Source of the DNA: Apostichopus japonicus | Lineage: Eukaryota; Echinodermata; Holothuroidea; Aspidochirotida; Stichopodidae | NCBI RefSeq assembly: GCF_037975245.1 | Contig: NC_092562.1 | Span: 32,366,554-32,430,553 of the forward strand | Length of the DNA stretch: 64,000 nucleotides | Direction of reading: 5' to 3' | Shown here: in pieces, positions 18,236-55,609 of the stretch | Position numbering within the stretch: the stretch's first letter is position 1 | Layout: every line of letters begins with the position of its first letter | The notes under the pieces: model-generated | The model's input: only the letters and a program-made list of their open reading frames with translations | Database searches by the model: none | Told to the model about the DNA's origin: nothing | Made by a program: the position numbers and the translations under genes

Positions 18236-18535
18236 GATAATATCTTATCAAAGTCAGAAAAATGTTGGATTGCTCATTTGCTTAAGCTGAACAACTTATC
18301 AAATCTCGTCAATTAAACATTTTTCTGAAAAATGTTCAATTGTTCACTTCATTCCAACTGAACAATTTTCTGCAAAATGTTCAATTGACCTCTAATCGTA
18401 TCACGCCAATTGAACATTTTTTTGCAAAATGTTCAATTGTTCACTTAATTCCAATTGAGCAATTGAACAATTTTCTGCAAAATGTTTGATTGACAACTTA
18501 TCATATCTCTTCAATTCAATATTTTTCTGCAAGTC
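18236..18535. repeat. Short palindromic minisatellite
   Basis: About four imperfect units contain TTGAACATTTTTCTGCAAAA and TGTTCAATTG, an inverted repeat around TTCTGC. It runs directly into the 76-bp satellite. Confidence 0.7.
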
Positions 18536-21500
18536 TTTGGTCTCCTCATCACCACACCCGTCAGTCATCTGCATCCCAGTACTTCTACCTTGTTGTCCTC
18601 TGTATTAAGTCTTTGACTTCCTCATCACCACACCCGTCAGTCATCTGCATCCCAGTACTTCTACCTTGTTGTCCTCTGTAGTAAGTCTTTGGTCTCCTCA
18701 TAACCACACCCGTCAGTCATCTGCATCCCAGTACTTCTACCTAGTCCTCTGTATTAAGTCTTTGGTCTCCTCATCACCACACCTGTCAGTCATCTGCATC
18801 CCAGTACTTCTACCTTGTCCTCTGTATTAAGTCTTTGGTCTCCTCATCACCACACCTGTCAGTCATCTGCATCCCAGTACTTCTACCTAGTCCTCTGTAT
18901 TAAGTCTTTGGTCTCCTCATCACCACACCTGTCAGTCATCTGCATCCCAGTACTTCTACCTTGTTGTCCTCTGTATTAAGTCTTTGGTCTCCTCATAACC
19001 ACACCTGTCAGTCATCTGCATCCCAGTACTTCTAGCTTGTTGTCCTCTGTATTAAGTCTTTGGTCTCCTCATAACCACACCTGTCAGTCATCTGCATCCC
19101 AGTACTTCTACCTTGTTATCCTCTGTATTAAGTCTTTGGTCTCCTCATAACCACACCTGTCAGTCATCTGCATCCCAGTACTTCTAGCTTGTTGTCCTCT
19201 GTATTAAGTCTTTGGTCTCCTCATAACCACACCCGTCAGTCATCTGCATCCCAGTACTTCTACCTTGTTGTCCTCTGTATTAAGTCTTTGGTCTCCTCAT
19301 AACCACACCTGTCAGTCATCTGCATCCCAGTACTTCTGCCTTGTTATCCTCTGTATTAAGTCTTTGACTTCCTCATCACCACACCCTTCAGTCATCTGCA
19401 TCCCAGTACTTCTGCCTTGTTGTCCTCTGTATTAAGTCTTTGGTCTCCTCATCACCACACCTGTCAGTCATCTGCATTCCAGTACTTCTACCTTGTTGTC
19501 CTCTGTATTAAGTCTTTGGTCTCCTCATCACCACACCTGTCAGTCATCTGCATCCCAGTACTTCTACCTTGTCCTCTGTATTAAGTCTTTGGTCTCCTCA
19601 TAACCACACCTGTCAGTCATCTGCATCCCAGTACTTCTACCTTGTTGTCCTCTGTATTAAGTCTTTGGTCTCCTCATAACCACACCTGTCAGTCATCTGC
19701 ATCCCAGTACTTCTACCTTGTTGTCCTCTGTATTAAGTCTTTGGTCTCCTCATAACCACACCTGTCAGTCATCTGCATCCCAGTACTTCTGCCTTGTTAT
19801 CCTCTGTATTAAGTCTTTGACTTCCTCATCACCACACCCTTCAGTCATCTGCATCCCAGTACTTCTGCCTTGTTGTCCTCTGTATTAAGTCTTTGGTCTC
19901 CTCATCACCACACCTGTCAGTCATCTGCATTCCAGTACTTCTACCTTGTTGTCCTCTGTATTAAGTCTTTGGTCTCCTCATCACCACACCTGTCAGTCAT
20001 CTGCATCCCAGTACTTCTACCTTGTCCTCTGTATTAAGTCTTTGGTCTCCTCATAACCACACCTGTCAGTCATCTGCATCCCAGTACTTCTACCTTGTTG
20101 TCCTCTGTATTAAGTCTTTGGTCTCCTCATAACCACACCTGTCTGTCATCTGCATCCCAGTACTTCTGCCTTGTTGTCCTCTGTATTAAGTCTTTGGTCT
20201 CCTCATCACCACACCTGTCAGTCATCTGCATTCCAGTACTTCTACCTTGTTGTCCTCTGTATTAAGTCTTTGGTCTCCTCATCACCACACCTGTCAGTCA
20301 TCTGCATCCCAGTACTTCTACCTTGTCCTCTGTATTAAGTCTTTGGTCTCCTCATAACCACACCTGTCAGTCATCTGCATCCCAGTACTTCTACCTTGTT
20401 GTCCTCTGTATTAAGTCTTTGGTCTCCTCATCACCACACCTGTCAGTCATCTGCATTCCAGTACTTCTACCTTGTTGTCCTCTGTATTAAGTCTTTGGTC
20501 TCCTCATCACCACACCTGTCAGTCATCTGCATCCCAGTACTTCTACCTTGTCCTCTGTATTAAGTCTTTGGTCTCCTCATAACCACACCTGTCAGTCATC
20601 TGCATTCCAGTACTTCTACCTTGTTGTCCTCTGTATTAAGTCTTTGGTCTCCTCATCACCACACCTGTCTGTCATCTGCATCCCAGTACTTCTACCTTGT
20701 TGTCCTCTGTATTAAGTCTTTGGTCTCCTCATAACCACACCTGTCAGTCATCTGCATCCCAGTACTTCTACCTTGTTGTCCTCTGTATTAAGTCTTTGGT
20801 CTCCTCATAACCACACCTGTCAGTCATCTGCATCCCAGTACTTCTACCTTGTCCTCTGTATTAAGTCTTTGGTCTCCTCATCACCACACCCGTCAGTCAT
20901 CTGCATCCCAGTACTTCTACCTTGTCCTCTGTATTAAGTCTTTGACTTCCTCACACCACACCCGTCAGTCATCTGCATCCCAGTACTTCTACCTTGTTAT
21001 CCTCTGTAGTAAGTCTTTGGTATCCTCATAACCACACCTGTCAGTCATCTGCATCCCAGTAATTCTACCTAGTCCTCTGTATTAAGTCTTTGGTTTCCTC
21101 ATCACCACACCTGTCAGTCATCTGCATCCCAGTACTTCTACCTTGTCCTCTGTATTAAGTCTTTGGTCTCCTCATCACCACACCTGTCAGTCATCTGCAT
21201 CCCAGTACTTCTACCTAGTCCTCTGTATTAAGTCTTTGGTCTCCTCATCACCACACCTGTCAGTCATCTGCATCCCAGTACTTCTACCTTGTTGTCCTCT
21301 GTATTAAGTCTTTGGTCTCCTCATCACCACACCTGTCAGTCATCTGTATCCCAGTACTTCTACCTTGTTGTCCTCTGTATTAAGTCTTTGGTCTCCTCAT
21401 AACCACACCTGTCAGTCATCTGCATCCCAGTACTTCTACCTTGTTGTCCTCTGTATTAAGTCTTTGGTCTCCTCATAACCACACCTGTCAGTCATTTGCA

Positions 21501-23822
21501 TCCAAGAACTTCTGCCTTGTTATCCTCTGTATTAAGTCTTTGACTTCCTCATCACCACTCTGTATTAAGTATCCCAGTACTTCTGCCTTGTTATCCTCTG
21601 TATTAAGTCTTTGACTTCCTCATCACCACTCTGTATTAAGTCTTTGATTTCCTCATCAACACAACCGTCAGTCATCTGCATCCCAGTACTTCTGCCTTGT
21701 TATCCTCTGTATTAAGTCTTTGACTTTCTCATCACCACTCTGTATTAAGTATCCCAGTACTTCTGCCTCATAACCACACCTGTCAGTCATCTGCATCCCA
21801 GTACTTCTACCTTGTCCTCTGTATTAAGTCTTTGGTCTCCTCATCACCACACCTGTCAGTCATCTGCATCCCAGTACTTCTACCTTGTCCTCTGTAGTAA
21901 GTCTTTGGTCTCCTCATCACCACACCTGTCAGTCATCTGCATCCCAGTACTTCTACCTTGTCCTCTGTATTAAGTCTTTGGTCTCCTCATCACCACACCC
22001 GTCAGTCATCTGCATCCCAGTACTTCTACCTTGTCCTCTGTATTAAGTCTTTGGTCTCCTCATAACCACACCTGTCAGTCATCTGCATCCCAGTACTTCT
22101 ACCTTGTCCTCTGTATTAAGTCTTTGGTCTCCTCATAACCACACCTGTCAGTCATCTGCATCCCAGTACTTCTACCTTGTTGTCCTCTGTATTAAGTCTT
22201 TGATTTCCTCATAACCACACCTGTCTGTCATCTGCATCCCAGTACTTCTACCTTGTTATCCTCTGTATTAAGTCTTTGACTTCCTCATCACCACTCTGTA
22301 TTAAGTATCCCAGTACTTCTGCCTTGTTATCCTCTGTATTAAGTCTTTGACTTCCTCATCACCACTCTGTATTAAGTCTTTGATTTCCTCATCAACACAA
22401 CCGTCAGTCATCTGCATCCCAGTACTTCTGCCTTGTTATCCTCTGTATTAAGTCTTTGACTTTCTCATCACCACTCTGTATTAAGTATCCCAGTACTTCT
22501 GCCTCATAACCACACCTGTCAGTCATCTGCATCCCAGTACTTCTACCTTGTCCTCTGTATTAAGTCTTTGGTCTCCTCATCACCACACCTGTCAGTCATC
22601 TGCATCCCAGTACTTCTACCTTGTCCTCTGTAGTAAGTCTTTGGTCTCCTCATCACCACACCTGTCAGTCATCTGCATCCCAGTACTTCTACCTTGTCCT
22701 CTGTATTAAGTCTTTGGTCTCCTCATCACCACACCCGTCAGTCATCTGCATCCCAGTACTTCTACCTTGTCCTCTGTATTAAGTCTTTGGTCTCCTCATA
22801 ACCACACCTGTCAGTCATCTGCATCCCAGTACTTCTACCTTGTCCTCTGTATTAAGTCTTTGGTCTCCTCATAACCACACCTGTCAGTCATCTGCATCCC
22901 AGTACTTCTACCTTGTTGTCCTCTGTATTAAGTCTTTGATTTCCTCATAACCACACCTGTCTGTCATCTGCATCCCAGTACTTCTACCTTGTTATCCTCT
23001 GTATTAAGTCTTTGACTTCCTCATCACCACTCTGTATTAAGTATCCCAGTACTTCTGCCTTGTTATCCTCTGTATTAAGTCTTTGACTTCCTCATCACCA
23101 CTCTGTATTAAGTCTTTGATTTCCTCATCAACACAACCGTCAGTCATCTGCATCCCAGTACTTCTGCCTTGTTATCCTCTGTATTAAGTCTTTGACTTTC
23201 TCATCACCACTCTGTATTAAGTATCCCAGTACTTCTGCCTCATAACCACACCTGTCAGTCATCTGCATCCCAGTACTTCTACCTTGTCCTCTGTATTAAG
23301 TCTTTGGTCTCCTCATCACCACACCTGTCAGTCATCTGCATCCCAGTACTTCTACCTTGTCCTCTGTAGTAAGTCTTTGGTCTCCTCATCACCACACCTG
23401 TCAGTCATCTGCATCCCAGTACTTCTACCTTGTCCTCTGTATTAAGTCTTTGGTCTCCTCATCACCACACCCGTCAGTCATCTGCATCCCAGTACTTCTA
23501 CCTTGTCCTCTGTATTAAGTCTTTGGTCTCCTCATAACCACACCTGTCAGTCATCTGCATCCCAGTACTTCTACCTTGTCCTCTGTATTAAGTCTTTGGT
23601 CTCCTCATAACCACACCTGTCAGTCATCTGCATCCCAGTACTTCTACCTTGTTGTCCTCTGTATTAAGTCTTTGATTTCCTCATAACCACACCTGTCTGT
23701 CATCTGCATCCCAGTACTTCTACCTTGTTGTCCTATGTATTAAGTCTTTGGTCTCCTCATCACCACACCTGTCAGTCATCTGCATCCCAGTACTTCTACC
23801 TTGTCCTCTGTATTAAGTCTTG
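18531..23822. repeat. 76/73-bp satellite array, about 70 units
   Basis: The unit is AAGTCTTTGGTCTCCTCATC, ACCACACCTGTCAGTCATCT, GCATCCCAGTACTTCTACCT, TGTTGTCCTCTGTATT. It is 76 bp, or 73 bp when one GTT is missing. Variants include GACTTCC for GGTCTCC and truncated units reading CACTCTGTATTAAGTATCCC. A block marked by GACTTTCTCATC recurs exactly every 736 bp (21722, 22458, 23194). An earlier block marked by ACACCCTTCA recurs 453 bp apart (19381, 19834). There is no coding signal. Confidence 0.95.
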
Positions 23823-24468
23823 TTTCGTCTCATTAAGTAGTAACGTTTAAGTCTTACTTAGTACAAAATCAATCTCTATTAATGGTCTAATATTCCTGTT
23901 TTTAATTCCAATTTATCTACTTTCTATTTTTTTGTATTGTGTTCTTAGAGGGAACCCTCCGTGACAATTTCATGAAGTCTACAGGCTACAACAGTATGAC
24001 ATGGTTGAATGATTAAGCCTCGGGCACACAGCCAAGACAGGTTTGTATATATGATAGTATAATTCCAGGAGCCACTCCAGGGGTTAACTCCAGGGGCTAG
24101 GGCCATACGAACTTCATTTCTTGACACACTTCATCAACATACAATGCAGTACAACACATTCCACCATATAATATTTAGAAGACAGCAAAATTAATTGCTA
24201 ATATTTGTAAACACTTATTTAATACCTCAAAAGTCAATTAATAATTAATAACACAAAGCAAATGGATGTTAAAATATATAAAATGCATAGAACTGCATTT
24301 AAATCTTACAAGGGCAAAGGCCTGCGATATACTGGCACATAATGCTACAAAGTATTTTGGTGGTTGTCGACATTAATTAAATGGACAATATTGGTGATTG
24401 AAACCATGTTATTATTACCCAAGATACTGACTGGAGAATACTAAGATGACTCAAGGTAACGACTAGAG
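23823..24468. other. Non-coding stretch, no gene seen
   Basis: AT-rich sequence between satellites; nothing recognisable. Confidence 0.4.
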
Positions 24469-24595
24469 ACATGCTAACATTACCCAAGACATTGACATGC
24501 TAACATTACCCAAGACATTGACATGCTAACATTACCCAAGACATTGACATGCTAACATTACCCAAGACATTGACATGCACAGGATTTCAAATTTA
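24469..24595. repeat. 26-bp minisatellite, four to five copies
   Basis: ACATTGACATGCTAACATTA followed by CCCAAG repeats exactly. The CATGCTAACATT/CCCAAG words also build the minisatellite at 26.0-26.6 kb, so the two are related. Confidence 0.85.
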
Positions 24596-24779
24596 TCCAA
24601 CTGAATTAGAAAAGGGCCTAAACCTTCACAAAAGGGCCAGAAGAGAATGAATGAATTTATAGAAGGGGGAGGGGGAGTGGGGAGGTGCTCCATTGGGGAC
24701 ACTGAAGCTGACTAGAGGCTGAGTGATAACTTGCCATATTTCACAAGATAACGTTCTTGTAATCATACAGTGGATGTAC

Positions 24780-25660
24780 ATAGCACATAATGGCACATAT
24801 GAAGGTCATTCAAGCTTACTCTTGGAGATAAACTGTTACAAAACTTTGATGCTGAGCTGTGTTGACTGCAAGTCACCTTTGAACTCCACAAGAAAACAAT
24901 AGGATTCTTGTATTCAATCAGCGTGATCCAAAAATCAGCTAAGATGTTCATCTAAGTGTTAAAGTTATGTTATACCACACTTTTAGACTTACATCTCTGT
25001 TGTCCACAAATGACCTTTGACATTTATGAGCAAGTACAAAGTTCATTCAACCTTTACCTATTACAAGCTTTTCAGAAATTGACCAATGGTGACCTCTATG
25101 CAGTGACGTTTGATCTTGATGAATATAAGCGGGTTCTTTTACTCACCAAGTATGAAGTTTTTCCAAGCTTGGCTGTGAAAGTATAGAGTTCACAAGGTTT
25201 TCATACTTTGACCCCATATGACCTCTCTGAAAGACAATAGGGGTCCTCTACTTAAAATGTGTGATACACACACCAACTATGAGGTTCATCCAAGCTTGAC
25301 TTTAGTGTTAAAGGGTTTCAAGCTCTGGTGACCTTTGAAAAATAACAAATTACTTGAAGTTAGACATATTGAGTTTGATGTTCATCCAAGCTTTGAAAAA
25401 GGATTTATAGCATTTACAGCATTTTTAGACTTAGACCTCTGGTAACCTAAAATGACCTTTGACCTCCACAGAAAATAATGGGGATTTTGTACTCACTAAG
25501 ATGGATCCATATACTATGAATCCTCTGACCTCTAGTTAGGGGACCTCATGACCTCCAGGGAAACAATAAGAATATTGTACTCACTAAGATAGATCCACTT
25601 ACAAAGTATGAAATTCAGCAAGTTATGGGGTGTACAAGGTTTTTAGAGTTTGACCTCTGG
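24780..25660. repeat. Decayed dispersed repeat with TGACCT half-sites
   Basis: Diverged monomers share a word order of GACCTCTGGTGACC, AAATGACCTTTGACCTCCAC, AATAGGATTCTTGTACTCA and TATGAGGTTCATCCAAGCTT. The clearest copy, TGACCTTTGACCTCCAC, lies near 25454-25470. It is a perfect direct repeat of TGACCT with one-base spacing. Related blocks occur at 47.48, 51.0-51.9, 52.7-53.1, 56.1-56.7 and 63.89 kb. Confidence 0.6.
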
Positions 25661-25990
25661 GAGACCTAGGTTTTCCTACTCACTAAAATGGCTGCATATA
25701 CCATTTATATGAATGGTACTGCTATGCACGTTTCAAGTTAGTTTAGAAGACAAGGCATAACACACGTACACCCCCACAAATATACCATCACCATTGCATA
25801 GATTCCTTTTGCTTGGACGCAGATTAAAAAATAGAAAATTAGACCTTAAACGATGCATTCTCAGGCAGGCATACATATGTTTAAACTATCAAGTAGCTCT
25901 ATATGGTGTGAGTGATGCTAGCATTACCACCCCAAGGTGGTAATGCCCTGCTGCCCACTCCTTCCCCCCCCCCCCCCCTTGCAATTGCCA
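25661..25990. other. Non-coding stretch with a poly-C run
   Basis: A run of about 15 C lies near 25965-25979. Nothing else is recognisable. Confidence 0.4.
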
Positions 25991-25994
25991 CAGA

Positions 25995-26610
25995 CACAAG
26001 GTACTGCCTGGACCCATGCTATTTAAAACCCAAGGTACTAATTGAAAACATGCTAACATTCGCCAAGGTACTGCCTGGAGCCATGCTATTATTACCCAAG
26101 GTACTGATTGAAGACATACTAACTTCCCAAGGTCCTGCCTGGAGCCATGTTATTATTACCCAAGGTACTGATAGAAAACATACTAGTTAACATTACTCAA
26201 GGTACTGATTGAAGACATACTAACATTCCCAAGGTACTGCCGGGAGCCATGCTCACATTACCCAAGGTACTGCCTGGACCCCATGCTATTATTACCCAAG
26301 GTACTGATTGAAGACATACTAACATTTCCCAAGGTCCTGCCTGGAGCCATGTTATTATTACCCAAGGTACTGATTGAAAACATGCTAACATTTCCCAAGG
26401 TACTGCCTGGAGCCATGTTATTATTACCCAAGGTACTGATTGAAAACATGCTAACATTTCCCAAGGTACTGATTGAAGACATACTAACATTCCCAAGGTA
26501 CTGCCAGGAGCCATGCTATTATTACCCAAGGTACTGATTGAAAACATGCTAACATTTCCCAAGGTACTGATTGAAAAAATGCTAACATTTCCTAAGGTAC
26601 AAGGTTTCTT
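25995..26610. repeat. Compound minisatellite of about 33-bp units
   Basis: Two unit types alternate: CCCAAGGTACTGATTGAAAA plus CATGCTAACATTT, and CCCAAGGTACTGCCTGGAGC plus CATGCTATTATTA. Open frames on both strands follow from the unit length being divisible by three. Confidence 0.9.
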
Positions 26611-26996
26611 ATCTAGTGAAAAGTTACAAAAGCGATTAGGTATAAAATATAGCAACATTAATTTTCTCAGGTGAAAACAAGTACAGGATATTTATTCTCT
26701 AAAAAACAAGAAAAACAAGAAAACATCATTTGAGCAAGCTTGAATTCTCCAATTTGGTATTTTAGTTTTTGACAAAGAAAATTTAAGACAAATTGGTTCC
26801 AAAGAAGGAATACACAAAGCCTACTTATTACTCTCATTACATTTGATTAGCTTCTTATATTATTAAACTGTTTGAACATTTCAACATTAATAATGCTATA
26901 GAAACTATGACTTGGGAAAAACACACCAGTGAAATATTATTACTATGGTAGCTCCAAGATTCAAGTCTGCGGCTTCAGAGATGCCTCATGTTTTAA
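26611..26996. other. Non-coding stretch, no gene seen
   Basis: AT-rich sequence between two tandem arrays. It would lie downstream of MSH5. Confidence 0.4.
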
Positions 26997-29911
26997 ATTT
27001 ATCATATACTGCAGTACTTGTATACAAGATTCATGTTCCCAGCATCCCAGATTCAACACTACACAACGACAACAAAACTCTATCATATACTGCAGTACTT
27101 GTATACAGGATTCATGTTCCCAGCATCCCAGATTCAACACTACACAACGACAACAAAACTCTATCATATACTGCAGTACTTGTATACAGGATTCATGTTC
27201 CCAGCATCCCAGATTCAACACTACACAACGACAACAAAACTCTATCATATACTGCAGTACTTGTATACAGGATTCATGTTCCCAGCATCCCAGATTCAAC
27301 ACTACACAACGACAACAAAACTCTATCATATACTGCAGTACTTGTATACAGGATTCATGCTCCCAGCATCCCAGATTCAACACTACACAACGACAACAAA
27401 ACTCTATCATATACTGCAGTACTTGTATACAGGATTCATGTTCCCAGCATCCCAGATTCAACACTACACAACGACAACAAAACTCTATCATATACTGCAG
27501 TACTTGTATACATGATTCATGTTCCCAGCATCCCAGATTCAACACTACACAACGACAACAAAACTCTATCATATACTGCAGTACTTGTATACAGGATTCA
27601 TGTTCCCAGCATCCCAGATTCAACACTACACAACGACAACAAAACTCTATCATATACTGCAGTACTTGTATACAGGATTCATGTTCCCAGCATCCCAGAT
27701 TCAACACTACACAACGACAACAAAACTCTATCATATACTGCAGTACTTGTATACAGGATTCATGTTCCCAGCATCCCAGATTCAACACTACACAACGACA
27801 ACAAAACTCTATCATATACTGCAGTACTTGTATACAGGATTCATGTTCCCAGCATCCCAGATTCAACACTACACAACGACAACAAAACTCTATCATATAC
27901 TGCAGTACTTGTATACAGGATTCATGTTCCCAGCATCCCAGATTCAACACTACACAACGACAACAAAACTCTATCATATACTGCAGTACTTGTATACAGG
28001 ATTCATGTTCCCAGCATCCCAGATTCAACACTACACAACGACAACAAAACTCTATCATATACTGCAGTACTTGTATACAGGATTCATGCTCCCAGCATCC
28101 CAGATTCAACACTACACAACGACAACAAAACTCTATCATATACTGCAGTACTTGTATACAGGATTCATGTTCCCAGCATCCCAGATTCAACACTACACAA
28201 CGACAACAAAACTCTATCATATACTGCAGTACTTGTATACAGGATTCATGCTCCCAGCATCCCAGATTCAACACTACACAACGACAACAAAACTCTATCA
28301 TATACTGCAGTACTTGTATACAGGATTCATGCTCCCAGCATCCCAGATTCAACACTACACAACGACAACAAAACTCTATCATATACTGCAGTACTTGTAT
28401 ACAGGATTCATGCTCCCAGCATCCCAGATTCAAAACTACACAACGACAACAAAACTCTATCATATACTGCAGTACTTGTATACAGGATTCATGCTCCCAG
28501 CATCCCAGATTCAAAACTACACAACGACAACAAAACTCTATCATATACTGCAGTACTTGTATACAGGATTCATGCTCCCAGCATCCCAGATTCAAAACTA
28601 CACAACGACAACAAAACTCTATCATATACTGCAGTACTTGTATACAGGATTCATGCTCCCAGCATCCCAGATTCAATACTACACAACGACAACAAAACTC
28701 TATCATATACTGCAGTACTTGTATACAGGATTCATGCTCCCAGCATCCCAGATTCAAAACTACACAACGACAACAAAACTCTATCATATACTGCAGTACT
28801 TGTATACAGGATTCATGCTCCCAGCATCCCAGATTCAATACTACACAACGACAACAAAACTCTATCATATACTGCAGTACTTGTATACAGGATTCATGCT
28901 CCCAGCATCCCAGATTCAAAACTACACAACGACAACAAAACTCTATCATATACTGCAGTACTTGTATACAGGATTCATGCTCCCAGCATCCCAGATTCAA
29001 AACTACACAACAACAACAAAACTCTATCATATACTGCAGTACTTGTATACAGGATTCATGTTCCCAGCATCCCAGATTCAATACTACACAACGACAACAA
29101 AACTCTATCATATACTGCAGTACTTGTATACAGGATTCATGTTCCCAGCATCCCAGATTCAATACTACACAACGACAACAAAACTCTATCATATACTGCA
29201 GTACTTGTATACAGGATTCATGTTCCCAGCATCCCAGATTCAACACTACACAACAACAACAAAACTCTATCATATACTGCAGTACTTGTATACAGGATTC
29301 ATGTTCCCAGCATCCCAGATTCAACACTACACAACGACAACAAAACTCTATCATATACTGCAGTACTTGTATACAGGATTCATGTTCCCAGCATCCCAGA
29401 TTCAAAACTACACAACGACAACAAAACTCTATCATATACTGCAGTACTTGTATACAGGATTCATGTTCCCAGCATCCCAGATTCAACACTACACAACAAC
29501 AACAAAACTCTATCATATACTGCAGTACTTGTATACAGGATTCATGTTCCCAGCATCCCAGATTCAACACTACACAACAACAACAAAACTCTATCATATA
29601 CTGCAGTACTTGTATACAGGATTCATGTTCCCAGCATCCCAGATTCAACACTACACAACGACAACAAAACTCTATCATATACTGCAGTACTTGTATACAG
29701 GATTCATGCTCCCAGCATCCCAGATTCAACACTACACAACCACAACAAAACTCTATCATATACTGCAGTACTTGTATACAGGATTCATGCTCCCAGCATC
29801 CCAGATTCAACACTACACAACCACAACAAAACTCTATCATATACTGCAGTACTTGTATACAGGATTCATGTTCCCAGCATCCCAGATTCAATACTACACA
29901 ACAACAACAAA
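26997..29911. repeat. 81-bp satellite array, about 36 units
   Basis: The unit is TATCATATACTGCAGTACTT, GTATACAGGATTCATGTTCC, CAGCATCCCAGATTCAACAC, TACACAACGACAACAAAACT, C. Units differ at a few positions, for example ATGTTC/ATGCTC, CAACAC/CAAAAC/CAATAC, and ACGACA/ACAACA/ACCACA. The 81-bp length equals 27 codons and the unit is almost stop-free. Three plus-strand frames and one minus-strand frame therefore stay open for up to 1000 codons. These are not accepted as genes. The array ends about 11 bases downstream of the MSH5 stop codon. Confidence 0.97.
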
Positions 29912-29922
29912 ACCCTTGCTGA

Positions 29923-30111
29923 CTAAAGTGACTTTCCATCTTGACTGATCGTTGGGATAACAAAGCCTTGCAAGAATGTCTTCATATTGACAGTATCAAT
30001 ATCCGCTTCCATCAGCTTAGCAACCACTGATCTGTACCATGTCAGCTGCTTCTCTGCACCGGCCTGGTCTACACGTGGGATTGGTTTATTCTCTTTAATA
30101 AGTTCAGTTAC
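29923..30111 (-). CDS. MSH5: MSH5, last coding exon
   Basis: MSH5 pairs with MSH4 in the clamp that stabilises meiotic recombination intermediates in the nucleus. This exon of 189 bases starts after the acceptor TTTTTAAAG in phase 0 and ends with TAG at 29923-29925. It encodes VTELIKENKPIPRVDQAGAE through VNMKTFLQGFVIP to a C-terminus SQDGKSL. The pattern and its 62 residues fit the human MSH5 tail (about 62 residues from EVSDLI to the end), as remembered. The MutS helix-turn-helix dimerisation tail is expected here. The satellite array starts almost directly after the stop, so the 3' untranslated region is satellite sequence. In the next frame the minus strand stays open through the whole array, so one frameshift in this exon could append hundreds of repeat residues. 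Confidence 0.88.
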   Translation of the reverse strand, partial: VTELIKENKPIPRVDQAGAEKQLTWYRSVVAKLMEADIDTVNMKTFLQGFVIPTISQDGKSL

Positions 30112-30682
30112 CTTTAAAAATAGAAGAAGAGGAGCTGACAATTGTACAGCAAAAACCAATTTTCCAACAATGTTGCGTAGCAAACAAGTTGAAACAGACT
30201 TCTTAATACCCCATTAACTATATATTTGGCTCAATTATGTAGTGTTCTATTATGGACTGATCAAGTTTGTCAATATTCCACAGTTATATTGTAGTGTGTC
30301 TCTATGAACAAACACAATTGTTAACAGGTAATAGCCCATTCAGCTATATTCCACAGTTATCATGTAGTGTGTCTGTATGAACAAGCACACTAGTTAACAG
30401 GTAATAGCCCATTCAGCTATATTCCGGTGTGCCTCTATAACAAACACAATTAAAAACAGGTATTAGCCCATTCAGCTGTATTCCAGTAATATTGTAGTGT
30501 GTCACTATGAACAAGCACATTTGTTAATAGGTAATCCCAGCAGGAATATTTCTGGCGATATTCTATATACACGTCAGCAAATAAATGTTATGTTTGTATT
30601 CAGTATTTCTGTATTTATAATGGTTTATGTGTCTCACATATTCTTCTTAAACAGACAGTTAAAATCAAAGATCTCAAATGAC
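30112..30682 (-). other. MSH5 intron with a 72-bp-type tandem repeat
   Basis: The 571-bp intron runs from donor GTCATT (30682) to acceptor AAAG (30112). From about 30250 to 30530 it holds three to four imperfect copies of TAGTGTGTCTCTATGAACAA, CACAATTGTTAACAGGTAAT, AGCCCATTCAGCTATATTCC, spaced 59-72 bp. Confidence 0.8.
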
Positions 30683-30820
30683 CTGTTGACCACGGTCAAT
30701 AATTTCATCTGGAAGTCCTGCCATAGATGAAATATGGCTAGCATAGCTGTGGTCCGTCTGGCCATGAATTAACTGGTATAGAAAGACCATCTCATCACCA
30801 TTCGGAATAACTTCCATGGT
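30683..30820 (-). CDS. MSH5: MSH5, penultimate coding exon
   Basis: The exon has 138 bases, exactly 46 codons. It starts after CTTTTTACAG in phase 0 and ends at CAACAG with donor GTCATT. It encodes TMEVIPNGDEMVFLYQLIHG, then SYASHISSMAGLPDEIIDRG. The corresponding human MSH5 segment begins TMETCEDGNDLVFFYQV and continues [20 protein letters not shown], as remembered, so the alignment is gap-free. This is the conserved stretch of the MutS ATPase domain after the switch region; the H/Y-A-S-H part corresponds to the G-S/A-H motif of MutS proteins. The upstream exon is more than 19 kb away, but the phases agree. Confidence 0.9.
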
Positions 30821-30935
30821 CTGTAAAAAGGAAATGAGTAAAATGAAAAGGTTACTGACAAAATATCTCTAATCAAGATATTATTCACTGCCTTATAAGC
30901 TTCATATACTGGGAGACTAAAGCACTCATATTACT

Positions 30936-33900
30936 TGTAGAGCATATGAGCATTCATTTGTGAGTAATATGAAGACCTTATGGATAATGATACACACACT
31001 AGTAGAGCATATGAGCATTCATTTGTGAGTAATATGAAGACCTTATGGATCATGATACACACTAGTAGAGCATATGAGCATTCATTTGTGAGTAATATGA
31101 AGACCTTATGAATCATGATACACACTAGTAGAGCATATGAGCATTCATTTGTGAGTAATATGAAGACCTTATGGATCATGATACACACACTAGTAGAGCA
31201 TATGAGCATTCATTTGTGAGTAATATGAAGACCTTATGGATCATGATACACACACTAGTAGAGCATATGAGCATTCATTTGTGAGTAATATGAAGACCTT
31301 ATGGATCATGATACACACTAGTAGAGCATATGAGCATTCATTTGTGAGTAATATGAAGACCTTATGGATCATGATACACACACTAGTAGAGCATATGAGC
31401 ATTCATTTGCGAGTAATATGAAGACCTTATGGATCATGATACACACACTAGTAGAGCATATGAGCATTCATTTGTGAGTAATATGAAGACCTTATGGATC
31501 ATGATACACACACTAGTAGAGCATATGAGCATTCATTTGTGAGTAATATGAAGACCTTATGGATCATGATACACACTAGTAGAGCATATGAGCATTCATT
31601 TGTGAGTAATATGAAGACCTTATGGATCATGATACACACACTAGTAGAGCATATGAGCATTCATTTGCGAGTAATATGAAGACCTTATGGATCATGATAC
31701 ACACACTAGTAGAGCATATGAGCATTCATTTGTGAGTAATATGAAGACCTTATGGATCATGATACACACACTAGTAGAGCATATGAGCATTCATTTGTGA
31801 GTAATATGAAGACCTTATGGATCATGATACACACACTAGTAGAGCATATGAGCATTCATTTGTGAGTAATATGAAGACCTTATGGATCATGGTACACACA
31901 CTAGTAGAGCATATGAGCATTCATTTGTGAGTAATATGAAGACCTTATGGATCATGATACACACACTAGTAGAGCATATGAGCATTCATTTGTGAGTAAT
32001 ATGAAGACCTTATGGATCATGATACACACACTAGTAGAGCATATGAGCATTCATTTGTGAGTAATATGAAGACCTTATGGATCATGATACACACACTAGT
32101 AGAGCATATGAGCATTCATTTGTGAGTAATATGAAGACCTTATGGATCATGATACACACACTAGTAGAGCATATGAGCATTCATTTGTGAGTAATATGAA
32201 GACCTTATGGATCATGATACACACTAGTAGAGCATATGAGCATTCATTTGTGAGTAATATGAAGACCTTATGGATCATGATACACACACTAGTAGAGCAT
32301 ATGAGCATTCATTTGCGAGTAATATGAAGACCTTATGGATCATGATACACACACTAGTAGAGCATATGAGCATTCATTTGTGAGTAATATGAAGACCTTA
32401 TGGATCATGATACACACTAGTAGAGCATATGAGCATTCATTTGTGAGTAATATGAAGACCTTATGGATCATGATACACACACTAGTAGAGCATATGAGCA
32501 TTCATTTGTGAGTAATATGAAGACCTTATGGATCATGATACACACACTAGTAGAGCATATGAGCATTCATTTGTGAGTAATATGAAGACCTTATGGATCA
32601 TGATACACACACTAGTAGAGCATATGAGCATTCATTTGTGAGCAATATGAAGACCTTATGAATCATGATACACACACTAGTAGAGCATATGAGCATTCAT
32701 TTGTGAGTAATATGAAGACCTTATGGATCATGATACACACTAGTAGAGCATATGAGCATTCATTTGTGAGTAATATGAAGACCTTATGAATCATGATACA
32801 CACACTAGTAGAGCATATGAGCATTCATTTGTGAGTAATATGAAGACCTTATGGATCATGATACACACACTAGTAGAGCATATGAGCATTCATTTGTGAG
32901 TAATATGAAGACCTTATGGATCATGATACACACACTAGTAGAGCATATGAGCATTCATTTGTGAGTAATATGAAGACCTTATGGATCATGATACACACAC
33001 TAGTAGAGCATATGAGCATTCATTTGTGAGTAATATGAAGACCTTATGGATCATGATACACACACTAGTAGAGCATATGAGCATTCATTTGTGAGTAATA
33101 TGAAGACCTTATGGATCATGATACACACTAGTAGAGCATATGAGCATTCATTTGCGAGTAATATGAAGACCTTATGGATCATGATACACACACTAGTAGA
33201 GCATATGAGCATTCATTTGCGAGTAATATGAAGACCTTATGGATCATGATACACACACTAGTAGAGCATATGAGCATTCATTTGTGAGTAATATGAAGAC
33301 CTTATGGATCATGATACACACTAGTAGAGCATATGAGCATTCATTTGTGAGTAATATGAAGACCTTATGGATCATGATACACACACTAGTAGAGCATATG
33401 AGCATTCATTTGTGAGTAATATGAAGACCTTATGGATCATGATACACACACTAGTAGAGCATATGAGCATTCATTTGTGAGTAATATGAAGACCTTATGG
33501 ATCATGATACACACACTAGTAGAGCATATGAGCATTCATTTGTGAGCAATATGAAGACCTTATGAATCATGATACACACACTAGTAGAGCATATGAGCAT
33601 TCATTTGTGAGTAATATGAAGACCTTATGGATCATGATACACACTAGTAGAGCATATGAGCATTCATTTGTGAGTAATATGAAGACCTTATGAATCATGA
33701 TACACACACTAGTAGAGCATATGAGCATTCATTTGTGAGTAATATGAAGACCTTATGGATCATGATACACACACTAGTAGAGCATATGAGCATTCATTTG
33801 TGAGTAATATGAAGACCTTATGGATCATGATACACACACTAGTAGAGCATATGAGCATTCATTTGTGAGTAATATGAAGACCTTATGGATCATGATACAC

Positions 33901-34042
33901 ACACTAGTAGAGCATATGAGCATTCATTTGTGAGTAATATGAAGACCTTATGAATCATGATACACACACTAGTAGAGCATATGAGCATTCATTTGTGAGT
34001 AATATGAAGACCTTATGAATCATGATACACACACTAGTAGAG
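30936..34042. repeat. 65/63-bp satellite array inside the MSH5 intron, about 48 units
   Basis: The unit is GAGCATATGAGCATTCATTT, GTGAGTAATATGAAGACCTT, ATGGATCATGATACACACAC, TAGTA. Lengths of 65 and 63 bp alternate through loss of one AC pair. Diagnostic variants (TTTGCGAG, GAGCAATATG, ATGAATCATG) recur in the same order 904 bp apart (32142 and 33046; 32641 and 33545), showing a second-level duplication of about 14 units. There is no coding signal. Confidence 0.96.
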
Positions 34043-35065
34043 CAACAGCTGAGGGTCCCAAATGACATGTGCAACATATACCACCCATGCAGCCTTGAGA
34101 AGCTAAACATCTTTCTCATAGTTTAACTACCAAAGTTACCCACCCAGTAGAATATTTGCCATATAAGAAACATTGACACCAGCATTCTAAACAATACCAA
34201 ATGGGCACTACTACCAACTGCAATATCAAAATAAAAAGAAACGAACTGTCTACTATTGATGAAAGTCCCATACATATGAACTAACTTTGAGAGAGTGCTA
34301 TGACACTTCTTGTCAAGAGGGAGTCTAAATGAGTAAATAAGGTATAAACTAAAATACCATACAGCACTGCACATCTCTTTGGCTCAGAAACCAAATTGGC
34401 TAAGTTAGCGATTTCTTGCCACACTTTATATACTAAATTTAAAGGCACACTCTCAGCTAGGAAATTGCTAAAATCAAAAATCTTGTCTCAACGTATTCCC
34501 AGATTAAAAAATAAAAACAATGCTGCCCTCTTCTCACAGCGGCAACATATTCATTTCTTTAATATGGCATTCTCATCCTTAGCTATAAACAGCATATGCA
34601 AATGGGTACTGTTACCGCGAAGGGATCAGGTTTCAGAGATTCTAATCTGCCTCTCAGTGTTGCGTAACCTATAGGCACATTGTGTAATTGTACTGTGTGC
34701 TATTCGAGTTAACGCAATTTTTCGATTTGCTATATGGAACAGTGCATATTGTACTGCTGGGAAAACGCTATACCAGCTCGTAGGAGCAGATAGTTGTTAT
34801 GGAAAGAGTCATATGTATGATCTCGTGCTGCCGATTTTTGTTGGAGAAATTGCTGAAGATATAAAATGCGAATAGTTTCGTCGTGTAATTCTCTATAAAC
34901 ATGTGACTGAATGTGTGCTGCTAATGTACTGTTATTTGACGAAACGACTTGCTTCTGGCCTAACGTTCTTCAATACTTGAGTTCAAAATAAAATAAAACT
35001 GTGAGCAAACAGCTTATCCACTAGAGAGCCTGTGTAGAAAAAACACGCACATAATACAGACAGGT
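34043..35065. other. MSH5 intron, no gene seen
   Basis: Within this stretch the segment at about 34408-34470 (CACACTCTCAGCTAGGAAAT) occurs in reverse orientation at about 46595-46655. This suggests two inverted copies of a dispersed repeat. No coding exon is recognised. Confidence 0.5.
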
Positions 35066-49984: not shown

Positions 49985-50203
49985 CTGACATCTCAGCTGG
50001 GTAGATGATGGTAGAAGCCCTTGTTTCAGAATGCTATGGAAGTGTGTTGATACAACCAGATGAGGGCAGTCATCTTCAAGAGCTAACCAGTGCTTCAATA
50101 TGGCAACTAAAAGGGACGTTCCATCTGCAACATCAGTGCCTTTACCAAATTCATCAATGATGACCAAAGATGAACTAGTAGCACTCTTAAGAGCTGTAGC
50201 CAT
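49985..50203 (-). CDS. MSH5: MSH5, Walker B exon
   Basis: The exon has 219 bases, exactly 73 codons, between acceptor GTTTTTAG and donor GTAGGT, both phase 0. It encodes ATALKSATSSSLVIIDEFGK, GTDVADGTSLLVAILKHWLA and CPHLVVSTHFHSILKQGLLP. LVIIDEFGKGT is the Walker B and D-loop region of MutS ATPases; the Asp-Glu pair coordinates magnesium and activates water. STHF carries the switch histidine. As I recall, human MSH5 has Asn at that position (ATNF), so this copy keeps the ancestral residue. The EFGKGT form (rather than the ELGRGT of MSH2/MSH6) is characteristic of MSH5. Confidence 0.93.
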
Positions 50204-50644
50204 CTAAAAACAATAAATGAAAATAGACATAGTCAAAAGGCATAGCAATATAATAGAATAAATAAATGACCTAGTAGTACTTTTAAGAACTCTAGCCCTC
50301 TAACAAACAATAAATGAAATAGACAGACTGTCATGAGGTGTAGTCATACTATAGAATAAATACATGACCTAGTAGTACTTCAATATCCCTTTAAGGGCAA
50401 ATACATGACCTAGTAGTACTTCAATATCCCTTTAAGGGCTTTAGAAAACACAGTTGTAGCATCAGATCATGGATGAAACAGATGACATGCATTCAATTGA
50501 AATAGCCTTCACTATCCTGCATAAAGAAGTAAGACTAAAGCACATAGGGAGCTGTAACTGTTAAATACTCCAGTATTCTATATTTACAGGACACATTTAA
50601 CTGACAGTTGGCAAGAAGATATTGTTGCTTTAACATTTTATTAC
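50204..50644 (-). other. MSH5 intron with tandem copies of the exon start
   Basis: The sequence CTAGTAGYACTYTTAAGARCT at the 5' edge of the Walker B exon (50175-50196) recurs as CTAGTAGTACTTTTAAGAAC at about 50271-50290. It is followed again by a TCTAACAAACAATAAATGAA stretch like the one beyond the true acceptor. Shorter copies of AATACATGACCTAGTAGTAC lie near 50360 and 50400. The intron therefore contains a partial tandem duplication of exon-plus-acceptor sequence. Confidence 0.75.
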
Positions 50645-50794
50645 CTGGTTTAAGTCAATCATGAAAGTCGATAAACCCACTGATATTGATTCCTGGGTGT
50701 GTATTCTAGTGTATATTCCATCCAACATACCAATGGTTGCTGATTCTGCAGGAACAAAGCTGCCAATGTGTGCCATGAATGAAATGAGTCCAAC
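50645..50794 (-). CDS. MSH5: MSH5, signature-segment exon
   Basis: The exon has 150 bases, exactly 50 codons, between acceptor CTTCTGCAG and donor GTAATA, both phase 0. It encodes [40 protein letters not shown] and [10 protein letters not shown]. The human MSH5 counterpart as remembered ([34 protein letters not shown]) aligns without gaps. GSFVPAE and STFM are the MutS-family segments after the P-loop and at the ABC-type signature, which contact ATP in the partner subunit. Confidence 0.94.
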
Positions 50795-53119: not shown

Positions 53120-55392
53120 TCTGGTGTCAGACTCTTGCCATTGGTATGGGAACCAGTCCATGTACATGGTATAATCAATACAACTAACTGCTGCTTACCT
53201 GTTTCAGGTATAGACTCTTGCAATTGGTATTGGAACCAGTCCATGTACATGGTATAATCAATACAACTAACTGTTGCCTACCTGTTTCAGGTATAGACTC
53301 TTGCCATTGGTATTGGAACCAGTCCATTTACATGGTATAATCAATACAACTAACTGCTGCCTACCTGTTTCAGGTATAGACTCTTGCCATTGGTATTGGA
53401 ACCAGTCCATGTACATGGTATAATCAATACAACTAACTGCTGCCTACCTGTTTCAGGTATAGACTCTTGCCATTAAAAGGTTAAGGTTAAGGTGGTAACA
53501 CTTGGTAAAGCACACATTACTGTAAAAACACTCAAAGGCGCTGAACAACAAAACAATTATAAAAACGAGTTCTTAAATAAATGAGTCTTTAACGCAGCTT
53601 TAAAAGTTCTGATGGTCTTCGAATTTCTTGTGTCGACGGGGAGAGCGTTCCAAAGTCTAGGGCCAGTGACGCTGAAAGAGCGGCCTGCGAAACATTTGCG
53701 GCGTGTGAAAGGAACCTTGAGAAGGATGCCCTTTGACGAGCGTGTTGAACGACCAGGTGTCTTAATTTCCAGCAACTCGGACAGATAAGCTGGTGTTGAA
53801 TTATGTATACACTTATAAACGAGGAGGAGGATCTTGTACTCGGCACGGACATTGACGGGGAGGATGTGCAGCTCCTTCAATGCTGCAAAGGCACTATCAT
53901 ATTTTGATCTGCCGAGAATAATTTTAGCCGTGTAATTTTGGATCCTTTGTAGGGGATGAAGTGTGGAGGCTGGGAGGTTGATAAAAAGACCATTGCAATA
54001 GTCCATATGAGAGAAAATCATGGCATTTGCAATTTTGAGACATGTCGACTTGTCCAAATATTTCCAGATCTTCTTCAGATTAAACATGGCGAGGGCTGAT
54101 GCACTAGCTTTCATGGAAATATGATGTTTGAGATTGAGGGTTTCATCCAAGTAAACACCTAGTAGCTTCACACTATCGGTACGACGGACGGGAGTGTCCA
54201 TTTACATGGTATAATCAATACAACTAACTGCTGCTTACCTGTTTCAGGTATAGACTCTTGCCATTGGTATTGGAACCAGTCCATTTACTTGGTATAATCA
54301 ATACAACTAACTGCTGCCTACCTGTTTCAGGTATAGACTCTTGCCATTGGTATTGGAACCAGTCCATTTACATGGTATAATCAATACAACTAACTGCTGC
54401 TTACCTGTTTCAGGTATAGACTCTTGCCATTGGTATTGGAACCAGTCCATTTACATGGTATAATCAATACAACTAACTGCTGCTTACCTGTTTCAGGTAT
54501 AGACTCTTGCCATTGGTATTGGAACCAGTCCATTTACATGGTATAATCAATACAACTAACTGCTGCTTACCTGTTTCAGGTATAGACTCTTGCCATTGGT
54601 ATTGGAACCAGTCCATTTACTTGGTATAATCAATACAACTAACTGCTGCTTACCTGTTTCAGGTATAGACTCTTGCCATTGGTATTGGAACCAGTCCATT
54701 TACATGGTATAATCAATACAACTAACTGCTGCTTACCTGTTTCAGGTATAGACTCTTGCCATTGGTATTGGAACCAGTCCATTTACATGGTATAATCAAT
54801 ACAACTAACTGCTGCTTACCTGTTTCAGGTATAGACTCTTGCCATTGGTATTGGAACCAGTCCATTTACTTGGTATAATCAATACAACTAACTGCTGCTT
54901 ACCTGTTTCAGGTATAGACTCTTGCCACTGGTATTGGAACCAGTCCATGTACATGGTATAATCAATACAACTAACTGCTGCCTACCTGTTTCAGGTATAG
55001 ACTCTTGCCATTGGTATTGGAACCAGTCCATGTACATGGTATAATCAATACAACTAACTGCTGCCTACCTGTTTCAGGTATAGACTCTTGCCGTTGGTAT
55101 TGGAACCAGTCCATGTACATGGTATAATCAATACAACTAACTGCTGCTTACCTGTTTCAGGTATAGACTCTTGCCACTGGTATTGGAACCAGTCCATGTA
55201 CATGGTATAATCAATACAACTAACTGCTGCCTACGTGTTTCAGGTATAGACTCTTGCCATTGGTATTGGAACCAGTCCATTTACTTGGTATAATCAATAC
55301 AACTAACTGCTGCTTACCTGTTTCAGGTATAGACTCTTGCCATTGGTATTGGAACCAGTCACTTTTTACACGATATAATCAAAACAGCTTAC
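53120..55392 (-). repeat. 83-bp array of MSH5 P-loop exon ends and donor sites, about 19 units
   Basis: On the minus strand each unit has about 43 bases matching the 3' end of the MSH5 P-loop exon (GACTGGTTCCAATACCAATG, GCAAGAGTCTATACCTGAAA, CAG). About 40 bases of intron start follow (GTAAGCAGCAGTTAGTTGTA, TTGATTATACCATGTAAATG). The exon part would read as TGSNTNGKSLYLKQ against TGPNASGKSVYLKQ in the true exon, which forms the upstream end of the array. About eleven units keep a GTAAGC donor, six have GTAGGC and one (near 55230) has lost it. None has an acceptor or upstream exon part. The array is split by a LINE at 53475-54197. Confidence 0.93.
53475..54197 (-). mobile_element. 5'-truncated LINE inserted in the 83-bp array
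   Basis: The insertion encodes, without stops, about 213 residues of the C-terminal part of a CR1/Rex1-like ORF2: VKLLGVYLDETLNLKHHIS, MIFSHMDYCNGLFINLP, LQRIQNYTAKIILG, LKELHILPVNVRAEYKILLL, FSVTGPRLWNALPVDTR and FKAALKTHLFKNSFL. Its 3' end carries ACCTTAACCTTAACC. The array unit stops after GCCATT on one side and resumes at TCCATTTACATGG on the other, so about 14 bases of the unit are missing. This suggests a target deletion instead of a duplication. The intact frame indicates a recent insertion, later than the array. Confidence 0.85.
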
Positions 55393-55609
55393 CTGTTTCA
55401 GGTAGACACTCTTGCCACTGGCATTGGGACCAGTCAGAAACTTCACCTTGCCCTCTTTGCTGTTAGATATAGTGTTGTTGGCGACAAAAGTGGCAACACA
55501 TACTTCCTGAAGGGGATGCCTACCACCATGAATCTCCAATGTTTTCTCCATTGTGAGGGTTGGGCAGATGTAGTTGTTCTCTCTGGCAGCAGCAGCGAAT
55601 GCAAGAAGG
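55393..55609 (-). CDS. MSH5: MSH5, P-loop (Walker A) exon
   Basis: The exon has 217 bases. It starts one base into a split codon after the acceptor CTACGTCAG and ends at CTGAAACAG with donor GTAAGC. It encodes LLAFAAAARENNYICP, LEIHGGRHPLQEVCVATFVA, NNTISNSKEGKVKF and LTGPNASGKSVYLKQ. GPNASGKS is the Walker A loop that binds ATP phosphates, and GGRHPL is the preceding conserved MutS motif. The human MSH5 counterparts as remembered are NGRHPLMELCARTFVPN and TGPNSSGKSIYLKQ. The one-base phase matches the two spare bases of the exon ending at 63954. The next 2.3 kb consists of copies of this exon's last 43 bases. Confidence 0.94.

Follow-up and report, generated by a model that had tools for sequence, protein, structure and literature searches.

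An array of duplicated 5' splice sites at the Walker A exon of MSH5 in Apostichopus japonicus, and similar arrays at other exon ends

Results

The MSH5 locus and its donor ladder

The window, the whole 64,000-base stretch that was analysed (C2:32366554-32430553 of a genome of 671,581,487 bases in 35 contigs), carries a single gene with MutS domain V, the Walker A and Walker B motifs and an MSH5-type signature (Table 1). With the Walker A exon joined in phase 0 to the exon that follows it, the translation matches the Pfam family MutS_V above the cut-off (E 2.6e-24). Five MutS_V loci were found genome-wide, this being one of them; we take it to be MSH5 from residues known in the human protein. 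The intron between the two exons is 4,596 bp long.

Table 1. Features of the MSH5 locus and loci of exon-end arrays elsewhere in the genome. Positions are those of the window unless a contig is named; a slash marks the exon-intron boundary; E values are those of the domain or family named.
Feature	Position	Strand	Evidence or remark
MSH5 Walker A exon, ending in GPNASGKSVYLKQ	55393..55609	-	Ladder unit 1; ends in phase 0; sequence and positions
True 5' splice site CAG/GTAAGC	55387..55395, GT 55392/55391	-	U1 duplex -11.0 kcal/mol
Decoy units 2-15, 83 bp each	54196..55360	-	10 CAG/GTAAGC, 3 CAG/GTAGGC, 1 CAC/GTAGGC; TRF, anchors, donors
Inserted 3' piece of a LINE, with the end of a reverse-transcriptase-type ORF, separating units 15 and 16	53475..54195	sense	Genome copies; ORF 53557-54201
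Decoy units 16-19 and truncated unit 20, which has no donor	53129..53474	-	3 CAG/GTAGGC, 1 CAG/GTAAGC; TRF, anchors, donors
Next MSH5 exon, acceptor TTCTGCAG/GTT	50645..50794	-	MutS_V match
Second, older boundary duplication in MSH5, upstream of the Walker B exon: a diverged copy of that exon's acceptor and first ~34 bases	50170..50439	-	TRF, alignment
MSH5 Walker B exon (MATALKSATSSSLVIIDEFGKGTD..LRCQ/), donor CAG/GTAGGT	49985..50203	-	Sequence
L006, PID domain spanning junction			E 1.3e-10
L008, TSP1 spanning junction			E 7.2e-8
L015, zf-C4			E 7.3e-10
L016, ATP13A2			E 7.5e-6
L032, MON1			E 2.2e-6
L037, PDE9A (PDEase_I)			E 5.7e-11
L039, SH3			E 7.6e-7; match is the first 29 of 70 residues
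L047, Bcl-2	C7:16264400-16266070		E 7.1e-8
L083, Saf4/Yju2			E 2.8e-12
L088, FERRY subunit 3			E 7.1e-11
L089, SID-1			E 2e-8
L005, L007, L010, L011, L018, L020, L033, L036, L040, L041, L042, L048, L050, L051, L052, L053, L054			Exon ends judged by eye
L057, 83-bp unit, acceptor-side ladder ending at PIG-U exon start	C3:27934800-27936000		PIG-U E 3.4e-18

The ladder is built from an 83-bp unit made up of the last 43 bases of the Walker A exon and the start of the intron. The anchor GCAAGAG occurs 20 times on the minus strand, from 55415 to 53138, the first occurrence being the exon itself. The first step between anchors is 75 bp and the following ones are exactly 83, apart from a single step of 791 bp at the LINE fragment. 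There are 18 donor-bearing decoy units, one of them broken, plus one truncated unit that ends before its donor (unit 20), so that the 19 units of the original prediction are correct when the exon is included and the truncated unit omitted. Eleven decoy donors are identical to the true donor (CAG/GTAAGC), six read CAG/GTAGGC and the broken one, in unit 3, reads CAC/GTAGGC. The first two of these counts agree exactly with what had been predicted, as do the gene, the anatomy, the direction of copying and the place of the true exon as the first unit in transcription order. The copy numbers and identity reported by TRF (15.0 and 4.2 copies at 96%) exclude a chance origin.

Whether the units derive from the exon, a point on which the original prediction might have failed, is answered by alignment: the exon agrees with the unit consensus at 38 of 43 bases and differs at 5. 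The consensus has TGSNTNGKSLYLKQ where the exon has TGPNASGKSVYLKQ, and the GPNASGKS of the exon becomes GSNTNGKS in the decoys. Identity is 97.5% among the 17 complete decoys (81 bp, 136 pairs), as against 88.2% between exon and decoys (43 bp). Ten columns vary among these decoys, two of the nine donor columns and eight of the 74 others, and this alignment shows no sign of selection keeping the decoy donors. A genome-wide DNA search with the unit, in which the best candidates alone were scored, gave 19 matches, all at this ladder.

The fragment that splits the array, presumably a LINE to judge from its protein features, shares 97-98% identity with the closest of its other copies in the genome, which makes the array older than a fairly young insertion. 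By eye, neither junction has a clear target-site duplication, and a small part of the unit is missing. That the units were falsely repeated or mis-joined during assembly is highly unlikely. Draft genomes are error-prone at repeats and an amphioxus array of related design, at BflGb6, is described as misassembled in its draft (PMC3087553), but the decoys differ at 10 columns, the array is interrupted by the LINE fragment, many independent arrays share the design (see below) and the assembly size agrees with that given for a HiFi/Hi-C assembly of the same species (671.60 Mb, 34 scaffolds; PMC10344927).

Other minisatellites of the window

After merging, 21 arrays cover 17,477 of the 64,000 bases of the window (27%). 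The second boundary duplication in MSH5 (Table 1) also has two 41-bp partial copies upstream, and translation of the Walker B copy in the decoy's frame ends at the TAG within the true acceptor. Long minisatellites occupy 18310-34044 (76 bp x 71, 81 bp x 36 and 65 bp x 48); the open frames of ~1000 codons in the 81-bp array are a by-product of its period. At 3-196 on the plus strand there is a purine-rich 64-bp repeat with three strong donor-like words on that strand.

Predicted consequences for MSH5 splicing

The energies of pairing with U1 are -11.0 kcal/mol for the true donor and the A-type decoys, -10.7 for the G-type decoys and -4.3 for unit 3, so that 17 of the 18 decoys differ from the true donor by at most 0.3 kcal/mol; two other donors in MSH5 give -8.1 and -11.3. 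Given this near-equal pairing and the 43 bases of exon context that the decoys carry, they may compete with the true donor. In classical assays of duplicated donors the intron-proximal site is often favoured, and from such a preference use of the decoys would be predicted; nothing in the sequence points to their use. Read-through from the Walker A exon adds VSCFDYIV before a TAA that lies 24 bases beyond the true donor and ahead of the first decoy donor. Every exon-extension isoform would therefore share one early stop whatever the length of the unit, which makes moot the earlier argument that decoy use would usually shift the frame.

The U1 energies are what would be expected of a sink. U1 would be drawn to the 17 strong decoys in competition with the true donor, the intron would be retained or transcripts with an early stop produced, and the output of MSH5 would be set by the number of units, the ladder working much like the decoy exons of OGT and SF3B1. 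The 11 MAGGTRAG words in the 4,596-bp intron, which are all array decoys, also fit, and intron retention is described as promoted by decoy exons in PMC12017769. The decoy exons of that account, however, also have U2AF-bound 3' splice sites, which are not matched by a good acceptor in the ladder units, while the ladder donors show no sign of selective upkeep, and a structure that recurs at many unrelated genes does not suggest a role peculiar to one of them. We consider a sink improbable.

The CAGs of the units are preceded by 7 pyrimidines in 17 positions compared with 11 in 17 at the true next acceptor, and there are AGs inside the tract. By sequence context, then, there is no pyrimidine tract at these CAGs, and the units have neither the usable pair of 3' and 5' splice sites of a decoy exon nor the strong acceptor followed at once by a donor of a recursive site. 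Because of this poor context, use of the units as cassettes or in recursive splicing appears unlikely. In the recursive case each CAG/GTAAGC would serve first as acceptor and then as donor, the intron being removed stepwise and the mRNA left unchanged. A CAG is directly followed by a donor in every decoy unit except 3 and 20; the upstream context GCAAGAGTCTATACCTGAAACAG, however, is pyrimidine-poor and broken by AGs, where known recursive sites have strong pyrimidine tracts, and as an account of the whole ladder this is exceedingly unlikely. U1 telescripting, with the decoys shielding the intron from early polyadenylation, was considered and set aside: the six AATAAA and three ATTAAA are all downstream of the array and nothing else supports it.

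Donor ladders at other exon ends

The genome was searched for runs of three successive strong donor words, spaced as in a minisatellite, using six words (CAGGTAAG, CAGGTAAGT, CAGGTGAGT, CAGGTAAGC, AAGGTAAGT and AAGGTGAGT). Upstream flanks were read for 47 arrays among the matches listed (about 100 each for CAGGTAAG, CAGGTAAGT and AAGGTGAGT), together with MSH5; an array at C2:5596163 was left out, and the reading is no census. An exon end was called where an open frame ended at or beside the first donor, mostly with an acceptor-like AG upstream. Among the matches listed, 29 of the 48 ladders, MSH5 included, begin at an apparent coding exon end, and 12 of the 29 are backed by homology (Table 1). 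Sorted by word, and again among the matches listed, exon ends account for 4/7 arrays with CAGGTAAGT, 3/7 with AAGGTGAGT, 3/5 with CAGGTGAGT, 7/12 with CAGGTAAGC and 9/14 with AAGGTAAGT; the six arrays with CAGGTAAG comprise three exon ends, two that are not (tallied under CAGGTAAGC) and that at C2:5596163. The genes of the homology-backed ladders are unrelated to one another, which argues against a device specific to MSH5 or to the P-loop.

The other 17 exon calls were judged by eye, unblinded. A Pfam scan of all 17 loci gave no significant match, the best E values being 0.027 (L051) and 0.078 (L048), and a PDB search with L005 and L052 found nothing. One of the 17, L010, resembles a first exon with a start codon. 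At L041 and L047 the exon's own donor is not the word searched for. The share of the unit taken by exon sequence, by an ungapped measure that excludes L036, L047, L083, L088 and L089, runs from 1 base (L041) through 7 (L016, L032 and L054) to more than 40. In 18 of the 23 ladders with an eye-assigned phase a read-through stop precedes the next matching donor, and in five it does not. By flank reading a recognisable exon end is absent at 19 of the 48 ladders, among which are several dispersed repeat families (L034/L035 and L085-L087).

Three of the exon-end loci have features of their own. At L047 a long array of a 32-bp unit begins where a Bcl-2-family exon ends; the donor of that exon, AAG/GTTATA, looks weaker than the AAG/GTAAGT copies downstream, which makes the locus a good place to seek decoy use. 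L050 (C17:196850-198700) has an 80-bp unit with an acceptor, a short exon-like piece and a donor, repeated about ten or more times, and could be a tandem microexon array. L041 (C2:4779500-4781100) and another array, L049 (C13:4511450-4513100), have nearly the same 61-bp donor-bearing unit, which adjoins an apparent exon on C2 and lacks that exon in the C13 flank, as if the seed of the array had moved.

The acceptor side

The acceptor word TTTYNCAGG gave 106 matches; the 100 of these that were listed form 28 arrays, and the downstream flanks of all 28 were read. Three of the 28, among the matches listed, end at the start of an exon. One is the PIG-U case (L057, Table 1), and the calls at L080 and L081 are based on open frames alone. 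The edge frames of 21 arrays were compared with Pfam; those of the other seven are shorter than 20 residues.

Exon ends are thus called at 29/48 donor arrays and 3/28 acceptor arrays (Fisher P 2.6e-5), a comparison between words that differ in specificity and in which most calls were made by eye; for homology-backed cases the shares are 12/48 and 1/28 (P 0.024). At the array edge the longest open stretch, with anything above 70 codons counted as 70, has a median of 47 codons for 47 donor loci and 25 for the 28 acceptor arrays (one-sided P 0.006). With the unequal specificity of the words and so many calls by eye, the contrast is only suggestive. Its direction would fit a higher tolerance for copies of a donor lying beyond the true site than for copies of an acceptor lying ahead of it, a reading for which it is weak evidence. 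Both tallies may be low, since the first readings by eye overlooked two real cases, PIG-U on the acceptor side and Bcl-2 (L047) on the donor side, the latter emerging from a second reading of 20 donor loci previously scored negative.

Raw numbers of matches were rejected as a measure of enrichment, being dominated by a few long arrays and running in both directions. Four donor words exceed their reversed controls (CAGGTAAG, 513 vs 187; CAGGTAAGT, 136 vs 34; CAGGTAAGC, 63 vs 0; AAGGTGAGT, 149 vs 14) and two fall below them (AAGGTAAGT, 61 vs 85; CAGGTGAGT, 29 vs 51), as do the acceptor words TTTTGCAGG (2 vs 22) and TTTYNCAGG (106 vs 259).

Discussion

The closest known structures are the mirages of amphioxus, minisatellites that lie across exon-intron boundaries in the Adh3 and globin genes (PMC3087553). 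According to that account, the Adh3 data and RT-PCR of the globins suggest that regular splicing is undisturbed, haplotypes differ in length and there is somatic instability at Adh3. The MSH5 ladder has the same build: its unit crosses an authentic exon-intron boundary, an intact authentic exon stands at the edge of the array and this edge escapes the homogenisation found inside it. In both animals many units keep their AG/GT signals and both 5' and 3' boundaries are affected. The differences are that the host is an echinoderm, that 18 donor-bearing decoys stand at the P-loop exon of MSH5, that dozens of arrays are concerned rather than a few named genes, and that the holothurian arrays are known here from the genome sequence alone. 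The original prediction knew of no described minisatellite made from the end of a P-loop exon; of this the P-loop location alone is new, boundary minisatellites as such having been described already in amphioxus. Nor did a special significance for the P-loop or for meiosis survive, unrelated genes having the same structure at their exon ends, and for that reason the P-loop location looks incidental.

The MSH5 ladder is most probably a mirage in a holothurian, a nearly neutral consequence of minisatellites that are actively growing. It would have been seeded when the end of the Walker A exon was duplicated in tandem together with the beginning of its intron, and would later have grown by slippage or unequal exchange inside the intron. 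A duplication over an exon end would spare the first exon copy and its donor and let the further copies land in the intron; harmful arrays would be removed by selection, and others would grow and homogenise. The true exon, first in transcription order, would be under protein selection and would not be homogenised with the decoys, which would be free to drift. It would seem most likely that the true donor is used nearly always, since the whole exon and its acceptor lie upstream of that donor alone. Rare use of a decoy would give early-stop transcripts, which would be destroyed. A genome rich in minisatellites and the second duplication within MSH5 both count in favour of the mirage.

Duplication across or within exon edges, yielding extra splice sites, is also a recognised route to intron gain, reviewed in PMC3443670 and described for potato in PMC4974935, and the ladder could be read as the birth of an intron or exon under way, its units supplying splice sites for alternative exons. 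In potato RdRp a boundary-spanning tandem duplication made a new intron (PMC4974935), the same is proposed for the amphioxus globins (PMC3087553), and at L050 acceptor, exon-like piece and donor do occur together in one unit. The ladder, however, has a far higher copy number, there is no evidence of a new intron or exon in use, the MSH5 units have no good acceptor, and read-through stops at 24 bases. For MSH5 this is very unlikely. Like the decoy exons of OGT and SF3B1 (PMC12017769), the ladder presents extra intronic splice signals that could hold spliceosomal factors, but its units have no good 3' splice site and have arisen by repeat growth, not as single cassettes. It resembles an ordinary intronic VNTR in being an internally homogenised minisatellite within an intron, and differs in that its unit begins in coding sequence and includes a functional donor. 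A bolder view would treat exon-end donor ladders as a recurrent class of length-tunable dials, in which unit number sets the trapping of U1 and the spliceosome and so varies the dose of MSH5 and other genes between individuals; there is only a small chance that this is so.

We found no earlier report of such arrays in echinoderms, or in dozens of genes per genome, in the openly licensed literature, which is weak evidence of absence. The mirage reading extends what was a curiosity of a few amphioxus genes to many genes in another deuterostome lineage, and the wider set of exon-end ladders is more interesting than the MSH5 case. For annotation they carry a warning: in genomes of this sort the ends of exons may be misplaced by gene finders. 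The arrays amount to natural tests of competition between duplicated donors, with the same exon end and donor present in few to many copies at fixed spacing in many genes, and RNA from one animal could reveal which donor wins, and why. Exon-end arrays are, moreover, raw material for the gain of introns and exons.
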